The notes beneath the pieces are model-generated. The model made no database searches. It had not been told where the DNA came from and worked only from the letters and a program-made list of their open reading frames with translations. From positions 1 to 37,518 of the IMG/VR virus record IMGVR_UViG_3300044638_003204: a DNA stretch of 37,518 bases. One strand, given 5' to 3'. Each line of letters begins with the position of its first letter. Position 1 is the stretch's first letter. Source of the DNA: a virus. The position numbers and the translations under genes were made by a program. Below, in pieces: positions 8,989 through 33,807 of this stretch.

Positions 8989-10617
8989 TTATGCTGTAGA
9001 TAAAGAAACTACAACAAGAGAACTACCATTTGGCACAGTTGAAATTGTTAATGTTCTTGGAGACACATTGTTTATAGTGTAATTTGCTGGGGCTTGAAAA
9101 ATCCCATCAATTGTTACAATATACAGTGCAGAATTAAGGCTACCAGATGTATTTCCAGTTAGCGTCCAAGTTGCTGTTGATCCATCCCCAGAAAATGTCC
9201 AAACATTACCAGCATTAGATGGAGGGAGAAATCCAGTTGCACCCGTTGCGCCTTGAATTCCAATTCCCGTTGCACCAGTGCTTCCTTGAATTCCAATTCC
9301 CGTTGCACCAGTGCTGCCTTGAGTTCCAACACCTGTTGCTCCAGTGCTGCCTTGCAATCCAGTAGCTCCAGTAAGACCAGAAGTAACAATTGCAAATATC
9401 AATTGCTGATTGTTTATGAATTGCGATGTTCCTCCAGATGCAACAAGTGTTACTGTAATAGAAATATAACTATTAAGAACAACAGTTGGGGTAGCGGTAA
9501 TCCTCCAAGTTTGGAAATTGTTTGAATTGCTTTGGTCTTGAACAATGAATGTATCGTTTGTTTTGAACAGAGGAAAGAAGACATCAATGTCATTTCCAAG
9601 CGCATCAATATGTGAAAGCGTTACAATTGTAGATGCTGTTTGCGTAGCGTTATCCCAATACAATGTATTGATTGCAGGAACGCCGCTCGTTATAGTTGTG
9701 TCAGCTTTGTAGTTGTAAAATGTAGATGATTGTCCAGTAAGTCCAGTAGCACCTTGAATTCCTGTTGCGCCTGTGGCTCCAATCCCTGTAGCTCCAGTGC
9801 TTCCTTCTGGCCCAGTTGATCCAGTTGAACCTTCCACACCAGTTGCTCCAGTGGCTCCCACGCCAGTTGATCCTTGCAATCCTGTTGCTCCAGTTGACCC
9901 AGTCAAACCTTGAATTCCTGTAGCACCAGTAGTTCCCGCTCCAGTAGCTCCAACTGGGCCAGTAGAACCAGTTGCGCCAATTGAACCAGTGCTTCCAGTT
10001 GCTCCAATTCCACCATCTCCAGAAAGTGCAATTTGCCAGTCTGCAAAAGTTCCAGAACCTTGAACTTTATCTACATAAATTTTTACAAAATCATCTGCAA
10101 CTTCAATAATATTTCCTTCAACCCAATCAAAAGGATAAGCAGAATTAGCAACGGCACGAACTCTTGATCCGTATGTCCATCCAACATCTGCTGAAGTAAA
10201 ATAAAATGTTCTTAATCCAACTTGAATTGGATGCGATGTAAAACTTTGACGAGTAATTACTGGAGATATACCACTTGCTCCTTGCAACCCCGTTGATCCA
10301 GTTGACCCTGTTGCTCCAAGATTTCCCGTTGCTCCTTGAGTTCCTGTTGCTCCCGTAGCTCCAAACCCCGTTGCCCCTTTTGGGCCAGTTGCTCCAAGAT
10401 TGCCAGTTGCTCCTCTTAAACCACTTGCCCCAGTTGATCCAATTCCAGTTGAGCCTGTTAAACCTTGCTGTCCAGTTGCTCCAATAGCTCCTGTTGCACC
10501 TATCCCAGTTGCGCCTGTAGCTCCAACATAAGGCCAGTTGCAATCCATAGAATTTAATGGAGCGCATCCGCAATTTGAAGAGCTTTGTGGGCTTGGAACC
10601 CAATTGAATTTTGGCAT
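8989..10617 (-). CDS. Collagen-like tail fibre (Gly-X-Thr repeats)
   Basis: The 542-residue protein has a Cys-containing N-terminus ([14 protein letters not shown]), a first collagen block of Gly-Ala-Thr / Gly-Ser-Thr triplets (about 32-125), a globular insert (about 126-210, with [19 protein letters not shown]), a second collagen block, a second globular insert (about 300-420), a short third block and a C-terminal beta domain ([14 protein letters not shown] to the end). Thr often fills the third triplet position, the place glycosylated in bacterial collagen-like proteins such as BclA. It is probably a trimeric virion fibre. DNA-level repetition makes length variation by slippage plausible. 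Confidence 0.85.
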
Positions 10618-17077: not shown

Positions 17078-19150
<2,073 letters not shown>

Positions 19151-25489: not shown

Positions 25490-27907
25490 TTATCCTGCTG
25501 TAACTGGTTTCGGAGGATTGGCGATTGCGTCAATCGTTCCAAGTTGTGTTGGTGCTGATTGCTCTGTCATTTCGCCAACAGCCCTTGCCTGTGCAACAAC
25601 TGGTCTGCGTCCTCCTCCTCCTGATGGCAATCCTGCGCCTGCCGCTGGTTGTAGTTCTTCTGGTGGCGGTGTTCCGTGACCTGCTGTCAAATGATCAAAC
25701 GCTTGCCTTGCCGCTTGCTTGTATTGTGTCACTTGCTGCGAGTTTGCACCCTTCGCTTCAGCTTGTCCAATGTGCATCATGAAATGCTGCAACGCTTTCA
25801 TAAATGGCGCAACCATTTCTGGAGGCAACGCGCCAGCGGGAGCTTGCTCAATAAGCGGCATGAGTTTTTGTGCCATCGTGTCAAGGTGAACGATGTCATT
25901 GTCTCTCGGAGATACAGGAACGTCTTGACCAGCAATGATAGATTGCAACTCGATAATCTGTTGGCGAGTAGCTTCAATTGCAAGTGCCTCAACCTGATCT
26001 TTCGGAAGGATAACTTGGTTGGCAATGCTTTCACCCATCTTGCGTGACCAATCGAGCTTCAGCAACTCGTCTTGGTTGACTTGCGGATTGCCCATGTAAC
26101 GTTGGATCATCAAATCAAGCATCGCGTTGTCCTGCGCCTGCGTGTCAGGCAGCAACTCTTCCGCTGGACTATATGCCATGAGCAAGATGTCAGCAGGAGG
26201 AAGGTTACGTTCAAGCATATTCAAGCAACAGAAAATTGCGTCTTCATCCAAATGATCTGGAATCTCGAAAGGCACAAGGAACGATGGCAAGTCCATGACA
26301 GACCGATCAAAAGCATCAACAACTTCACGCCTTGCCCATGTCGCTGATGGAACCATTTGACGAGCGATGTCAAGACGAGTTTTAAGTTCGGCAGCAGCTT
26401 TGACGTGTTCTGGATGACAGATACCTCGCTGCATACGCTCAACTGCTTTGGAGTATTGTTTTGTCCAACGCATCAAGATGCCTTCACGAAGCTGATTCTC
26501 GATAGCAGCAACGCGATTTACTTCAGATGCCGTGCGCTTACTGCCTTGCGCTTCCATTGGCATTCCCGGCAAAAATGTTCCAACTTGAATTTCAGCAAGA
26601 CCAGAAATGAACTGATCCAATCGCAGGAAATCATCAACATCCGCTGGCAAGTTTTGCGGAATGACTTCATATCCTTCCGCGATATAGCAGATAGGATGAT
26701 GGACAGTCAGCGGTGCTGCGCCTGCTTTTGCATTCGGGCCTTTCTTGAGCAGCAACATTCCTTTGAGGTAAACATTGTCCACAACAAGATTTCGAGCTTT
26801 GTCAACTGCAATATGCGTGTTGTAAAGGTCGCGTCCTGCACCACGGGAACCCATGAGATTGCCGTTGCCGATCTCGATTGCAAACAATGCGAGGCATTCG
26901 CTCATCGCGTTGTATCGGTCAATCTGTGTGCAAATTTCGTCTCCGCTCTTATCGTCAAAAAGAAAGCGGCTAATCTTGCCGTGCGGTTCTTTCACCAGCA
27001 ACTCGCCAAGCTCAACATATTTCGCGTCATTCTCGTAGCTTGCGCCATACGATCCTTCACGAATCCAGTCCTCGTAACGACGAGCGTCATCATCAGAATC
27101 CAGCGTTCTACCAGCGGGAATTGCGTTGTTTATTGACTTAATGAGGTTCTTGATATGCCACCCTGCCATTGCTGCCATCTGCGGGTCTTCAAGGACTGGA
27201 AGCAATTCCGCGATCTGGTATCGGCGTTTACGCGCCCAAATTGGAGTTGCGTCAACCTCCTGTGGAGTTTCAATGGAAAAGAACGTATAATCTTGGCGCA
27301 AAAATTCTGGTTTCCAATCGCGCAAATCGTCCCAACATAGACCACAAAATCCAAATGTGGTATTTTCATGGACAACTTGTGCCACGATGTCATCGTGACC
27401 ACTCCAACCACGGATGCACTTGGTAATTTCTTCGCGGAAAACTTTGGTTTTATTTTCTGCGTCTACTCCTTCGACTGGATACTTGGAGAAGGTGAGAGTT
27501 GTAGCCTGCTCGATGACCTGCCGAAAAGGAGGTTGAATTCGACTAACCATCGTGGACAAGAATCCAGTAGGACGATTAGAACGCCAATTTTGGCCCATGC
27601 TTTCCAGCTTCTTTGCAGCATATGGAGGCTCATTGTTGAGCTTCTTTTGGATCAGTTGATTTTTCCTATTCCTTTCGACATTTTGCTGTTTAAGCCTGCG
27701 ATACGCAGAGTGCGCTTGCGCGGCATCTTTAAATGTTCGCTTAACCTGCAAAGTATCTTTATTGACAACATCATTATTCCCAGCAGTGGAATCAACAACA
27801 TCCAAATCAAGAATGCGAGGTTTGTCATAAGCGTTAGTAATGCGAGGAGATTTTGTCGCATAGGTATCTGTTACTATTGCTGGTAACGGTTTTAATACGT
27901 CAGCCAT
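25490..27907 (-). CDS. Portal protein (head-tail connector)
   Basis: The 805-residue protein is of the large podoviral portal type. It carries typical blocks: SAYRRLKQQNVERNRKNQL, FLSTMVSRIQPPFRQVIEQA, PVEGVDAENKTKVF and a C-terminal acidic/Gln-rich segment. It is followed, in transcription order, by small genes, scaffold and capsid, as for T7-like phages. It would form the dodecameric ring through which DNA enters. The Pro/Gly-rich C-terminus (AAGAGLPSGGGG) is probably disordered. No single motif is diagnostic, so the call rests on length, order and resemblance. Confidence 0.8.
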   Translation of the reverse strand: MADVLKPLPAIVTDTYATKSPRITNAYDKPRILDLDVVDSTAGNNDVVNKDTLQVKRTFKDAAQAHSAYRRLKQQNVERNRKNQLIQKKLNNEPPYAAKKLESMGQNWRSNRPTGFLSTMVSRIQPPFRQVIEQATTLTFSKYPVEGVDAENKTKVFREEITKCIRGWSGHDDIVAQVVHENTTFGFCGLCWDDLRDWKPEFLRQDYTFFSIETPQEVDATPIWARKRRYQIAELLPVLEDPQMAAMAGWHIKNLIKSINNAIPAGRTLDSDDDARRYEDWIREGSYGASYENDAKYVELGELLVKEPHGKISRFLFDDKSGDEICTQIDRYNAMSECLALFAIEIGNGNLMGSRGAGRDLYNTHIAVDKARNLVVDNVYLKGMLLLKKGPNAKAGAAPLTVHHPICYIAEGYEVIPQNLPADVDDFLRLDQFISGLAEIQVGTFLPGMPMEAQGSKRTASEVNRVAAIENQLREGILMRWTKQYSKAVERMQRGICHPEHVKAAAELKTRLDIARQMVPSATWARREVVDAFDRSVMDLPSFLVPFEIPDHLDEDAIFCCLNMLERNLPPADILLMAYSPAEELLPDTQAQDNAMLDLMIQRYMGNPQVNQDELLKLDWSRKMGESIANQVILPKDQVEALAIEATRQQIIELQSIIAGQDVPVSPRDNDIVHLDTMAQKLMPLIEQAPAGALPPEMVAPFMKALQHFMMHIGQAEAKGANSQQVTQYKQAARQAFDHLTAGHGTPPPEELQPAAGAGLPSGGGGRRPVVAQARAVGEMTEQSAPTQLGTIDAIANPPKPVTAG

Positions 27908-27917
27908 AATTTATTTT

Positions 27918-28502
27918 TTATTTATTCAAATTTATCCAACAATCTTTAGGGGTATTTGATGCTGCTGACAATTGTTTTTTGAACATGAATACTGCGCTAC
28001 GATTATCGTGTCGCATTACATTGCAACCACCAAGTTTTACTGATGTCTCTGTATCTTTACCATTTCTAACGCTGGCAGACACACGTTCAGCAGCAGAAAC
28101 GCACGAGGCGCAACCTGATTTCCACGATTTATTTTCTGGACAAGTCTTGCAAACTTGTGCGCGTTGTTCAGCCAATTCGTCAGAAACAAGCAAATTTTTC
28201 TTGCCAGAATTTAAAATGTTTTTTGCCCAAACAGTAATGTCGTTTAACAAAGTTTGCTGACTTGTTTCTGGATGGACTGAAGTCACAACAACCATGTCAA
28301 CTCCATGACAAAAATTAGGCCAGTTAGAACAAAGGTAACTACTGACATCACCCTCAACATCGCCGATTGGCAAATGATTTTCCGCACGATAATTTTGCAC
28401 TGTTGTCAAAAGAAATTCATAAGAATGAGATGTCAATTTTACATCTCCTTCCATGTAGTGCCATCCACCGGGAGGTATCATTCCAATAATAGGTTTTGCC
28501 AT
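27918..28502 (-). CDS. Cys-motif protein of unknown function
   Basis: The 194-residue protein contains VCKTCPENKSWKSGCASCV, a four-Cys arrangement (CxxC, then CxxC) that probably binds zinc or forms a rubredoxin-like knuckle. The N-terminus reads MAKPIIGMIPPGGWHYMEGD. Proteins of this kind occur near the terminase in environmental phages, but I cannot name a function. It starts just after the 41-base repeat array and ends ten bases before the portal start. Confidence 0.75.
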   Translation of the reverse strand: MAKPIIGMIPPGGWHYMEGDVKLTSHSYEFLLTTVQNYRAENHLPIGDVEGDVSSYLCSNWPNFCHGVDMVVVTSVHPETSQQTLLNDITVWAKNILNSGKKNLLVSDELAEQRAQVCKTCPENKSWKSGCASCVSAAERVSASVRNGKDTETSVKLGGCNVMRHDNRSAVFMFKKQLSAASNTPKDCWINLNK

Positions 28503-28559
28503 AATTTTGTGTTCTTTAATTTAAATTTTAAAATCTTGCAAGCATAATTTATCTTTTAT

Positions 28560-28682
28560 GATAAATGAAGCAAGCAATATGATCTTAACGCATCATATTT
28601 GATAAATAAAGCAAGCAATCACCACTTAGTGCATCACATTTGATAAATAAATCAAACCACATTTGATTATACGCTACTTTTG
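28560..28682. repeat. 41-base tandem repeat, about three copies
   Basis: Units begin with GATAAAT at 28560, 28601 and 28642, exactly 41 bases apart. The first 20 bases of units 1 and 2 agree except for one base; their ends (GCATCATATTT, GCATCACATTT) also agree, while the middle differs. Unit 3 is partly degenerate and contains a perfect inverted repeat AATCAAA/TTTGATT (28650-28668). A TTTATC/GATAAA palindrome (28548-28565) overlaps the first unit. The array lies just after the terminase gene. It could be binding sites for a regulator, an origin-like element or a packaging signal. Confidence 0.75.
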
Positions 28683-28693
28683 ATATGTTGCAT

Positions 28694-30562
28694 TTATTCG
28701 CTAAAATCGATAAATTCTATTTTGTCAACGATGGATTGCATTCCGCGATCCATTAACCGAGGAGCTTCTTTTTTGTTTTCTACCATAGTCGCAGTTGATC
28801 CTGCTCGTTGCCTCATAAGAAATACCAGCATCGAAAGCGAGTCCAAAGCGTCAGGTGATGGTTGCCGTGTCCGCTTAACATAATCTTTTTTACTTTCTAC
28901 GCGCACCATGCCTTTTCCTTTCTGCATATAACGCCTTCCAGTAGCTTGCCGAACAAGTTGATCGTTGCTGAACCCCGGTGATATTTTTAAATATTCAAAC
29001 TCAAGATACTTGGACAAACCAAACAGCAATTCAGTTACAACTCCGTTGTAAAGCTCGCTCGCCTTCTGTGAATCATCGCCTAGGATATGCGTGTCCGTTG
29101 CCGCCCAAGAATAGTTCACTCCAAGCACATCATCACCAAACAAAGTTTTTAACGAGTCATGGATGCCTGCACCATTGCCAGTTCGGTCAACGCATAACCA
29201 GTTCGGAGCAATCTTCATGTTCTTACAAAACTTGATGATGTTGTAAGTTTGCTCCAGCGTTGCCGCTTTCGGGAATGTCATCTGAGAATCAAGCTGCAAT
29301 ACTGTTCTCGGAGTCTTGAACGGAATAAACTGGCCGCTCATCGGTGTCCACCCGTCACAAAGGCCAAATCTTCCGAAAGAACAAACAACAGTGTCATTGC
29401 CTTCCAGTGCCAAGTCGAACGCTGCCAGAGGCACTACAGGCCCAATAAACCGCACGTTACCCATCGCGTTATCAACCATTGACGGAGTAATAATCGCCAT
29501 GCTGATACCTTCCTGCGGGAACCAACCTCTCGCCATCGTAAAATATTCAGCGGTTCTGCCTTTCGCCTCGTATGCCGTGTAGCCTTCGTTGGTTTGCAAG
29601 CCGGGAAAAACAATTTTCTGCTCAATGACATTTTCGCATCGTGCGGCATCAAGGCGCAAGACGTGCCAACCATCGCGTGACTCCCATTCAAAGTCATCCT
29701 CGCAATCAACCGATCCCCAACCCCGCTCTGGTTCGCACCGCTTGCCAAACTCGCTTGTCCTATCTTTCGGGTTAGATGCAGCAAAAATTTTAATGCGTCC
29801 CTTTGCGCCTTCGGTATCAGCAGCGGACAAGATGTTTTGCAGACCCTCCCACACTCCAGCAGGAACTTCTTCCGCTTCGTCCAGCACAACATGAGTTCTG
29901 GACATCTGACCCCATGTCGGATGCGGCTTGCCTGATCTTGGACTTGGGTGGAAACCACGAAGAGTTCCCGTTCCGCTATCGCCTTTCGGAATAGCTACAA
30001 GATGAATTCCGTTCTTAGAATCATTATTTGCTTGTATGCTTTTTACAAGCGTTTCACTACCATCAAATTCTGGACGAACCAATGCAGTTGTATAAAACTT
30101 TTTAATAGCAGCAAATACGTTGCGTTGAGCGTGTTCAGCAGTAAGTGAAACAACTTTAATGCAAGTGTAGTGAGGGTCACGCATCCAGTCCAGCAGAAAC
30201 CATGCCGCTGCGCCAAATGTTTTTCCCATCGCTCCAGCACCTTGGATCAACAACTTGTCATGGTCAAACAAGCATCTCCATGTATCCATTGAGGATTGTG
30301 GTCGCCAATCATAAACCTGTTGACCCCACAAGACAGTTGCCGCCGCTTCAAACTGATCTTTGTTAAGCAGTTCGTTGACAAACTGCAATACAACATTTTT
30401 TGCAAACGGCAGGTCTACTTTAAAGTTGCCAGTTGTATTTGAAACATTTGTTATAATATACTTTGCGGCAAGCAATATCCCGCGATCTTCATCAGTCGCG
30501 TTATCAACCTCGGCACGAATTTTTTCTGCCAAGGCAATTGCGTTTTTAACATCTGCTGTCAA
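28694..30562 (-). CDS. terL: Terminase large subunit
   Basis: The 622-residue protein shows Walker A GAGAMGKTFG (108-117), Walker B THVVLDEAEEVP (223-234), the coupling motif AASNP (about 262) and a C-terminal nuclease domain with LCVDRTGNGAGIHDSL. This is the ATPase/nuclease that cuts and packages phage DNA. The start is TTG at 30562, overlapping the previous stop (ATT-TGA), because the next in-frame Met (residue 92) would remove the N-terminal region. No separate small-terminase gene is evident just upstream. Confidence 0.93.
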   Translation of the reverse strand: MTADVKNAIALAEKIRAEVDNATDEDRGILLAAKYIITNVSNTTGNFKVDLPFAKNVVLQFVNELLNKDQFEAAATVLWGQQVYDWRPQSSMDTWRCLFDHDKLLIQGAGAMGKTFGAAAWFLLDWMRDPHYTCIKVVSLTAEHAQRNVFAAIKKFYTTALVRPEFDGSETLVKSIQANNDSKNGIHLVAIPKGDSGTGTLRGFHPSPRSGKPHPTWGQMSRTHVVLDEAEEVPAGVWEGLQNILSAADTEGAKGRIKIFAASNPKDRTSEFGKRCEPERGWGSVDCEDDFEWESRDGWHVLRLDAARCENVIEQKIVFPGLQTNEGYTAYEAKGRTAEYFTMARGWFPQEGISMAIITPSMVDNAMGNVRFIGPVVPLAAFDLALEGNDTVVCSFGRFGLCDGWTPMSGQFIPFKTPRTVLQLDSQMTFPKAATLEQTYNIIKFCKNMKIAPNWLCVDRTGNGAGIHDSLKTLFGDDVLGVNYSWAATDTHILGDDSQKASELYNGVVTELLFGLSKYLEFEYLKISPGFSNDQLVRQATGRRYMQKGKGMVRVESKKDYVKRTRQPSPDALDSLSMLVFLMRQRAGSTATMVENKKEAPRLMDRGMQSIVDKIEFIDFSE

Positions 30563-32695: not shown

Positions 32696-33183
32696 TTTAC
32701 AAAAGCCAATACATCCTCCGGATGCTTGTCTGCAAATTGAGGGTGTGTTGAAAGTAACCCAACCGCAATGCGTAGTTGCTGCCTCGCCTCATCGCGCTCT
32801 TGTTTGTATCTGCCACACATTGCCGCCCACTCGTCACGCTCGCGCTTATAGTCTTCCGTTTGGTCAACAAAATCAACAAATTGCTTTCGCGTTTCATCAC
32901 GTATTTTTTCAGCCATGAGTATTTTTTCTCGCGCAACATCCTTGCACAGAGTTATGTGTTGTATCTGTTTCAAAAAATCTGCGGCAGATGTATTTTTATC
33001 AAAAATCGCCTCGTCGCGCTCGCGTTCAAGTTTGCGAGCAAACTCCAAATCAACGCACGGCACTTGGTATCCGTTATCGTTCATGGCGTAGATTGGCTGG
33101 TCATCCGTCTCTGGTGTGTTTGATAGCGATGAGAAAAAATCTGTTACGGCATTGTTATCGCCTTTGATTATTTCAATTTTCAT
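32680..33183 (-). CDS. Coiled-coil protein with TPETD / FARKLERE motif
   Basis: The 167-residue protein has a start MKIEIIKGDNNAVTDFFSSL, then TPETDDQPIYAM and VPCVDLEFARKLERERDEA followed by long charged helices to the end (EEYKRERDEWAAM-like). The TPETD...VP..FARKLERERDEA pattern is widespread in small phage and bacterial proteins of unknown function. It ends FVKEGAK, the shared junction sequence, and begins with an identical one. Probably a long coiled coil. Confidence 0.78.
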   Translation of the reverse strand: MKIEIIKGDNNAVTDFFSSLSNTPETDDQPIYAMNDNGYQVPCVDLEFARKLERERDEAIFDKNTSAADFLKQIQHITLCKDVAREKILMAEKIRDETRKQFVDFVDQTEDYKRERDEWAAMCGRYKQERDEARQQLRIAVGLLSTHPQFADKHPEDVLAFVKEGAK

Positions 33184-33195
33184 TTCGCGCCCTCC
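33180..33195 (-). repeat. Shared junction/RBS repeat, copy 3
   Basis: Third identical copy of GGAGGGCGCGAAATGA, here at the start of the 167-residue gene, preceded by a second GGGAGG that may strengthen the ribosome-binding site. Confidence 0.85.
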
Positions 33196-33233
33196 CTCCC
33201 GTAAGCCGCATCCGTCTCTGGTGTCTCACTCAT
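33180..33233 (-). CDS. Putative 17-residue peptide (TPETDA remnant)
   Basis: Between two ATGA overlaps lies a 17-codon frame MSETPETDAAYGREGAK. Its TPETDA core repeats the TPETD motif of the next gene and its end is the shared EGAK junction. It fits the spacing exactly, so it may be a short coupled peptide or a decayed copy of a longer TPETDA-type gene. Confidence 0.45.
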   Translation of the reverse strand: MSETPETDAAYGREGAK

Positions 33234-33418
33234 ATCCATGCTCCATTCTCAACTTGCTCGATGTTGATTTGAATGCTCCACAAATGCGACCAGACCGATT
33301 GCTCTTGCAACCATCCGAAAAATGTTGACATGGCATCTGGACTTGACTTCGCCTTGGTGAACAACTCGCCACTGAATATGTTCTTTGGCGAGCTATATGT
33401 GATTTTGTATGTATTCAT
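33230..33418 (-). CDS. Small hypothetical protein
   Basis: I choose the ATG at 33418 (MNTYKITYSSPKNIFSGELF), which overlaps the deaminase stop by four bases; a longer frame upstream is antiphase to the deaminase gene. The 62-residue product contains FTKAKSSPDAMSTFFGWLQE and ends NIEQVENGAWI. Its stop overlaps the next small start (ATGA). Function unknown. Confidence 0.75.
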   Translation of the reverse strand: MNTYKITYSSPKNIFSGELFTKAKSSPDAMSTFFGWLQEQSVWSHLWSIQINIEQVENGAWI

Positions 33419-33807
33419 ATATTTATTAATTCTATTCCGAAATCTGCCGCGAGAAGAATCGTTGATTCGTCCGTTGGATAGGTTTCGCGGTAGACGATAC
33501 GCCTGATGCCATACGATGCAAGAGATTTTAAACAATTATTGCATGGCAGCGTTGTAGACGCAATCAACCGACACTCGTTCGGCTTGACATGACGCAATGC
33601 GTTCTGCTCCGCATGGACAACGTAGTTCCTCCTGCGCTCACGATCAGACCAGTCCTCAATCATGTGCGCTGGAAATCCATTGTAGCCACAAGCGGCAATC
33701 GTGTTGTCATGCCGCAACAACACTGCTCCAACCTGCCGCCATGGGTCTTTGCTCTTCTTTGCAACTACCTCGGCGATGCCAAGCGCGTATTCGTCCCAGT
33801 CGCTCAT
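33415..33807 (-). CDS. dCMP/CMP-type deaminase
   Basis: The 130-residue protein carries the zinc-deaminase motifs HAEQNA (His65-Ala-Glu67) and TLPCNNC (Pro88, Cys89, Cys92). These match dCMP deaminases and ComE-type deaminases, which turn dCMP to dUMP for thymidylate synthesis. The start at 33807 has GAGGA five bases before it and an ATGA overlap with the lipoprotein gene. Together with the MazG-like gene it points to phage control of nucleotide pools. Confidence 0.88.
   Translation of the reverse strand: MSDWDEYALGIAEVVAKKSKDPWRQVGAVLLRHDNTIAACGYNGFPAHMIEDWSDRERRRNYVVHAEQNALRHVKPNECRLIASTTLPCNNCLKSLASYGIRRIVYRETYPTDESTILLAADFGIELINI

Follow-up and report, generated by a model that had tools for sequence, protein, structure and literature searches.

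The AT-rich spacer of 191 bp that separates the gene for the terminase large subunit (TerL) from a conserved gene of 194 amino acids (aa) is probably a transcription control region, made up of a sigma-70-like promoter and a helically phased operator array. The repeats, their spacing, a conserved promoter-like core, a fixed distance between dyad and core and dyad changes that fall on both arms are observed; from these we infer the identity of the promoter, its start point and binding by a dimer. The stretch of DNA that was analysed (the window) is an IMG/VR virus record of 37,518 bp, a partial one, in which the minus strand carries most of the called genes. A reading made earlier from the letters alone (the sequence-only reading) had suggested a regulator-binding array, replication iterons or a packaging signal. 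The first of these three suggestions appears to fit best, judging from the fixed, phased distance of the dyads to a conserved promoter-like core.

The spacer and its tandem array

The spacer (28503 to 28693, minus strand) has a GC content of 0.26 and holds the repeats. TerL (622 aa; 28694 to 30562, minus strand; phrog_2, E 4e-11) lies transcriptionally upstream of it, and the 194-aa gene (27918 to 28502, minus strand), whose product has eight invariant cysteines and which is the proposed target of the predicted promoter, lies downstream. The next gene downstream of the 194-aa gene is a conserved gene of 805 aa (25490 to 27907, minus strand) that is called a portal by position only and is without a family match. 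The repeats had been placed directly after the terminase gene, which is correct for the minus-strand TerL, and they also stand upstream of the minus-strand 194-aa gene. The gap had been put at about 190 bases and described as rare in this genome, and it is indeed the largest one: a greedy ORF call over the window gives seven gaps of at least 60 bp, and none of the others is as long.

Tandem Repeats Finder (TRF) reports a 41-bp array of 2.4 copies at 28559 to 28655 (period 41, score 129). The motif GATAAAT starts at 28560, 28601 and 28642, in steps of exactly 41 bp, as had been claimed for three units, but the match of the third unit is confined to its first part (GATAAATAAATCAAACC), so the array consists of two full units and a fragment. 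The unit edges that had been singled out as conserved are enriched: the window has two occurrences of GATAAATRAAGCAAGCAAT (at most three mismatches) where shuffles predict 0.06, and two of the other edge, GCATCAYATTTGATAAA, where they predict 0.41, a count of two being reached by 6 of 100 shuffles. Two palindromes that had been called perfect are confirmed as inverted repeats with perfect arms, AATATGAT/ATCATATT at 28576 to 28599 and AATCAAA/TTTGATT at 28650 to 28668.

The informative repeated element is the dyad TTTATCA-N4-TGATAAA and not the unit edge. Three copies lie on the minus strand of the spacer: dyad A, farthest upstream (TTTATCA-AATG-TGATGCA, 28630 to 28647), dyad B (TTTATCA-AATA-TGATGCG, 28589 to 28606) and the promoter-proximal dyad C (TTTATCA-TAAA-AGATAAA, 28548 to 28565), which is a perfect palindrome in several relatives. 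The second arm thus takes the forms TGATGCA, TGATGCG and AGATAAA. With at most three mismatches allowed, ATTTATCANNNNTGATAAAT occurs three times in the whole window against 0.39 expected, and all three occurrences are in the spacer, exactly 41 bp apart.

A -10-like TATAAT is also found at 28666 to 28671 (minus strand), upstream of the array and just past the TerL stop; 11 of 13 distinct spacers retain it as TATAA(C/T). Elsewhere in the window, 9232 to 10353 and 17885 to 19097 contain many arrays with periods of 9 or its multiples, CCAGTTGCT-like on the plus strand, which look like collagen-like repeats in tail genes.

The promoter-like core and its distance from the dyads

The -35-like hexamer TTGCAA (28536 to 28541, minus strand) lies 6 bp past dyad C. 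It is followed after 17 bp by the -10-like hexamer TAAAGA (28513 to 28518, minus strand), which stands 10 bp before the ATG of the 194-aa gene, and transcription would start near 28506 (minus strand), about 4 nt before that ATG. A tblastn search with the 194-aa gene gave 196 hits in 323 loci, many of which overlap. Setting eight aside left 188 usable upstream regions, which comprise 84 different sequences over the last 70 nt. A hexamer of the class TTG[CT]A[ACT], defined after the first relatives had been seen, stands exactly 39 nt before the ATG in 32 of these 84 distinct regions, and the next commonest offset, 47, is found in nine of the 84. The consensus layout in relatives is TTGCAA-N17-TATTAG/TAAAGA/TAAAAC-N10-ATG.

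Dyads with at most two mismatches were found within the last 150 nt of 14 of the 32 hexamer-bearing regions, being absent from the remaining 18, and in none of the 52 regions without the hexamer. The gap between the nearest dyad and the hexamer is 6 bp in 12 of the 14 and 16 bp in two; these distances differ by roughly one turn of the helix. Seven regions carry another copy 47 or 88 bp from the hexamer, which places it 41 or 82 bp farther up. All 13 pairs of adjacent units show the same 41-bp spacing, while the bases between units vary. These pairs come from 11 sequences with at least two dyads, drawn from 13 distinct spacers of which two (L009 and L088) have a single dyad. Of 17 spacer groups with the core, 13 have their best dyad centred 15.5 to 16 bp ahead of the hexamer, although here, as in the counts above, the sequences are related and do not represent independent events or tests. 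The best dyad lies elsewhere in the other four groups (L089, L013, L014 and L016); the dyads of L014 and L016 resemble the consensus yet have a low symmetry score.

A generic promoter scan did not flag the TTGCAA-N17-TAAAGA core, a result that fits a weak activator-dependent promoter, a host whose consensus differs or the absence of a promoter. Among the six genomes searched, five have the exact core pattern, and only at this gene, so there is no regulon that supports the promoter reading. A looser pattern also matched in three distant rows of the TerL tree (L063, L065 and L072), inside long gaps that contain genes, and these matches are taken as chance.

Relatives and the symmetry of the dyad

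Of 143 loci found by the TerL search, 80 were kept, and 25 loci were found with the 194-aa gene; the region after TerL was examined in 76 of the 80, the other four ending in or at TerL. In a TerL tree of 56 rows, the window and the core-bearing relatives form one clade of 14 (support 100/98). Its spacers are 44 to 191 bp long in the 13 rows measured, and the spacer of L008 is also present. A second core-bearing group, with 64-65% identity in the 194-aa protein, is not among the rows of this tree and has a single half-site only in 10 of its 14 rows. In the sister clade of 16 rows, of which 14 were measured, the gap between TerL and the 194-aa gene is 1-3 bp in 13 and holds an 874-bp insert in one. 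The junction measures 596 to 3478 bp in 12 tree rows (L028, L044, L050, L062, L063, L065, L072, L075, L077, L079, L080 and L096) and so seems to admit whole genes in other lineages.

The position of the spacer directly after TerL is what would be expected of a packaging initiation (pac or cos) site read by the terminase. This reading appears disfavoured, and we consider it very unlikely, because the same gene pair is nearly contiguous in the sister clade and the small subunit gene is far from the spacer. In G001, TerS (43025 to 43498; PF20901, E 2.7e-34) is separated from TerL by about 6 kb and from the spacer by about 9 kb, and in phages of the Sf6/P22 type pac is in or near terS. The ends of the records G001, G002 and G004 differ in their position relative to TerL, so no end shared by them is seen at the spacer.

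This one spacer combines direct repeats with dyads and AT-rich DNA, as a replication origin with iterons might. However, a lambda-O-like gene of G001 (38583 to 39437; phrog_678, E 4e-28), about 13 kb from the spacer, holds three 21-bp iterons of its own (AAATACCTA...) followed by a 19-bp inverted repeat (G001 39073 to 39182; L108:19073-19182). The same three iterons are present in the O-like gene of G002, and two copies are kept in G012 and G013, which are without the spacer. These iterons are likely the replication origin of the phage group. In lambda, the iterons of ori lie in gene O; the spacer resembles ori in having direct repeats in phage DNA and differs from it in that the iterons here are in the O-like gene. 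Together with the distant TerS, the O-like gene iterons make both the origin and the packaging readings unlikely for the spacer, and an origin, given that the sister clade is almost without a spacer, is extremely improbable. Where only the end of the O-like gene could be aligned, G004 has an array with a 33-bp step near the aligned part, and G003 and G005 have a weak two-copy repeat only; no homologue of the gene was found in G014, G019, G020 and G021.

Close relatives share the spacer, and their units make one or two steps of 41 bp. The search for the array in related phages that the sequence-only reading had proposed thus gave a divided answer, since the spacing is kept in every adjacent pair but the array is confined to close relatives. 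The unit of dyad B is missing in L003, L004, L085 and others, L088 has one perfect dyad, and in L013 and L089 the promoter-like core is present but no dyad comparable to these. The dyad itself changes between lineages. In L009 (TTTATAACAAATTATAAA) both arms are altered together, to TTTATAA..TTATAAA, and in L017 and L018 (TTTTTGCATAAAAA(T/C)TGCAAAAA) they are altered together to TTTTTGCA..TGCAAAAA; in L015 and L259 only one arm of the L017-type dyad is changed.

Symmetry was compared with 1500 shuffles for eight hand-picked sequences, counting shuffles that were as good either at the same place or anywhere in 60 bases. These numbered 2 at the place and 5 anywhere for L088, 2 and 28 for L009, 2 and 57 for L017, 4 and 36 for L018, 1 and 14 for L005, and 0 and 6 for L011. 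For dyad C of the window there were 14 at the place and 225 anywhere, and for L013 there were 21 and 248. Since dyad C is imperfect and the weakest among the array carriers tested, the case for symmetry rests on the relatives.

The main alternative for the AT-rich stretch is an UP element, that is, an AT tract bound by the alpha subunit of RNA polymerase, with the tandem units as a by-product of slippage. UP elements lie immediately upstream of the -35 element, which is where the dyad, nearly all A+T, stands relative to the -35-like hexamer. The number of units differs between close relatives, and several core-bearing relatives are without a good dyad, as slippage and a simple AT tract would allow. 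Such a tract needs no dyad symmetry, yet symmetry is kept as both arms change in L009 and L017, and the array continues upstream for as much as about 80 bp more, with its step held at 41 bp; an UP element is therefore an unlikely explanation, if one to be weighed seriously.

The same paired changes in L009 and L017 are those expected of base pairs in an RNA, and RNAfold gives an extended stem over dyad C, so that a hairpin in a read-through transcript of TerL might protect, process or end that transcript. The folding is ordinary on both strands (z -0.54 and 0.23), with 53 and 122 of 200 shuffles folding as well, and the spacer has no match in Rfam. The stems are A-U-rich and without a U tract, the arms of the upstream units are mismatched, and the distance from dyad to promoter-like core is fixed. 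An RNA element is quite improbable on these grounds, and an operator array beside a promoter remains the preferred reading.

The dyad sequence also occurs outside the spacer. With at most two mismatches, TTTATCANNNNTGATAAA is found at three places in G001 (65 kb) and four in G002 (62 kb); four of these seven are the spacer pairs, two in each genome, and the other three are isolated matches with two mismatches. Isolated near-dyad matches, one each, are present in the array-less records G012, G016, G018, G020 and G022, that of G018 with a single mismatch. A perfect dyad was found in 41 stretches, and among the 39 examined seven are at the TerL/194-aa locus and 32 are elsewhere; the perfect dyads of L010 and L011 are also at this locus. 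The perfect dyad is thus not specific to the phage group of the window. In G005 (71,431 bp), L256 and L282 are two diverged copies of the region near the two ends, 70% and 65% identical to the 194-aa gene of the window, and this record may be a chimera of two phages.

The proposed control region, its target and candidate regulators

In the proposed control region, weak elements (TTGCAA-N17-TAAAGA in the window, with TATTAG or TAAAAC as the second element in relatives) would form a sigma-70-like promoter from which an almost leaderless message for the 194-aa gene starts, and the genes behind it would probably be on the same message. A dimeric DNA-binding protein, of phage or host, would bind the AT-rich dyad centred 15.5 bp upstream of TTGCAA, roughly -50 from the predicted start. 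In the window and its close relatives this site would have been copied upstream in 41-bp steps (four helical turns), so that binding could be cooperative between two or three sites that face the same side of the helix, and recombination or slippage between units would change their number. The protein may be an activator or a repressor; the place of the site upstream of a weak core leans towards an activator. More tentatively, the array may belong to a regulator not yet described, from a phage group that has not been cultured. Its operator would shift in sequence between lineages while dyad symmetry and exact position are kept on a nearly leaderless promoter, and strength would be gained by 41-bp copying of the site, so that one locus would present a natural series both in operator specificity and in copy number.

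The control element is of a familiar kind, and no published description of this array was found in the open-licence literature. The operators OL and OR of lambda have several dyads in a row beside a promoter, an arrangement suited to cooperative binding of dimers, but they are closer together and control early genes. The spacer differs from them in its 41-bp spacing and its place beside the terminase, and no repressor gene is seen. The text on phage Mu in PMC4390567 describes Mor as a phage-made dimer that recognises a 16-bp element, centred at -43.5, with two inverted repeats of 5 bp, and promoters of the Mor/C type are described in PMC4461284 as having the activator site upstream of the -35 and non-consensus -10 and -35 elements. 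In these middle and late promoters, which are weak sigma-70 promoters, the dyad sits at the -35 region or close upstream of it, and the spacer has the same proposed layout. Unlike them, its dyad is of another sequence, has a centre at about -50 (counted from a start that is itself predicted) and is present in up to three phased copies. No member of the Mor/C family was found among 50 of the 92 ORFs of G001 (Pfam, E 0.01).

Repeated perfect 17-bp palindromes are described for the Cluster O mycobacteriophages such as Corndog, where the symmetry suggests binding of a dimeric protein and recombination between copies causes deletions (PMC4351075). Leaderless messages have been predicted for these phages. 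Their 34 sites are dispersed and mostly off promoters, and in that account the authors think a transcriptional role unlikely (PMC4351075). The spacer shares with them repeated dyads in a phage, but here these form one cluster fixed to one promoter-like core.

If the promoter is regulated as proposed, it offers a handle on gene control in a phage group for which no close isolate was found. The natural variants (core only, one dyad, a changed dyad, two or three dyads, and a dyad shifted by one turn) form a test series that would show how a promoter responds to the number of sites and to their helical phase. Should it be no more than an ordinary promoter with copies of an operator, its interest is modest.

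The eight cysteines of the 194-aa protein are invariant in an alignment of 33 relatives. The protein has no match in Pfam, and the 33 members gave only weak matches in PHROGs: tail fiber assembly (best E 0.00098, eight members), phrog_13558 of unknown function (20 members) and the 'transcriptional regulator' phrog_536 (three members, best E 0.075). The best match of a profile search against the PDB was a zinc-finger protein (E 0.0072), which may reflect only the cysteines. An AlphaFold2 model (pLDDT 85.7, pTM 0.57) has no match at E 0.001 in BFVD or the PDB and no recognised fold. No relatives of the 194-aa protein were found among 50,697 phage records at E 1. TerL has four matches, 22-29% identical. 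The TerL of G001 (947 aa, L109:9732-12575) is 325 aa longer than that of the window and contains a match to LAGLIDADG_3; this segment is a probable intein, absent from the TerL of the window.

A regulator was sought among 50 of the 92 ORFs of G001, and no clear helix-turn-helix (HTH) regulator was seen among all 20 Pfam families and the best 25 of 54 PHROGs; the families among these are recombination, replication, nucleotide and glycan genes. A comparison of gene presence across 15 records showed that a 185-aa gene and a gene for a 136-aa protein with an acidic tail follow the core-bearing genomes. The 185-aa gene, which we take from its motif to be methyltransferase-like, was not found in the (partial) window record, and neither protein is likely to be the regulator. 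A 98/107-aa gene upstream of TerL is specific to carriers, but it matches only an unknown PHROG and was not recovered in G030 and G031, where a near-perfect dyad is present; it was rejected, as were two opposite-strand ORFs of 214 and 112 aa that look spurious. As to the host, no relative of the portal was found in bacterial genomes, and one relative of TerL, 64% identical, is on a 3.5-kb contig of a Terriglobia metagenome-assembled genome (MAG), a match too weak to name a host. A 209-aa gene of G001 (33010 to 33639; L108:13010-13639) matches the Erv1/Alr sulfhydryl oxidases (E 1.4e-8) and includes a weak Fe_dep_repr_C match (E 0.0046) below the cutoff of that family. This Erv1/Alr-matching gene shares its phage with the conserved eight-cysteine 194-aa protein.
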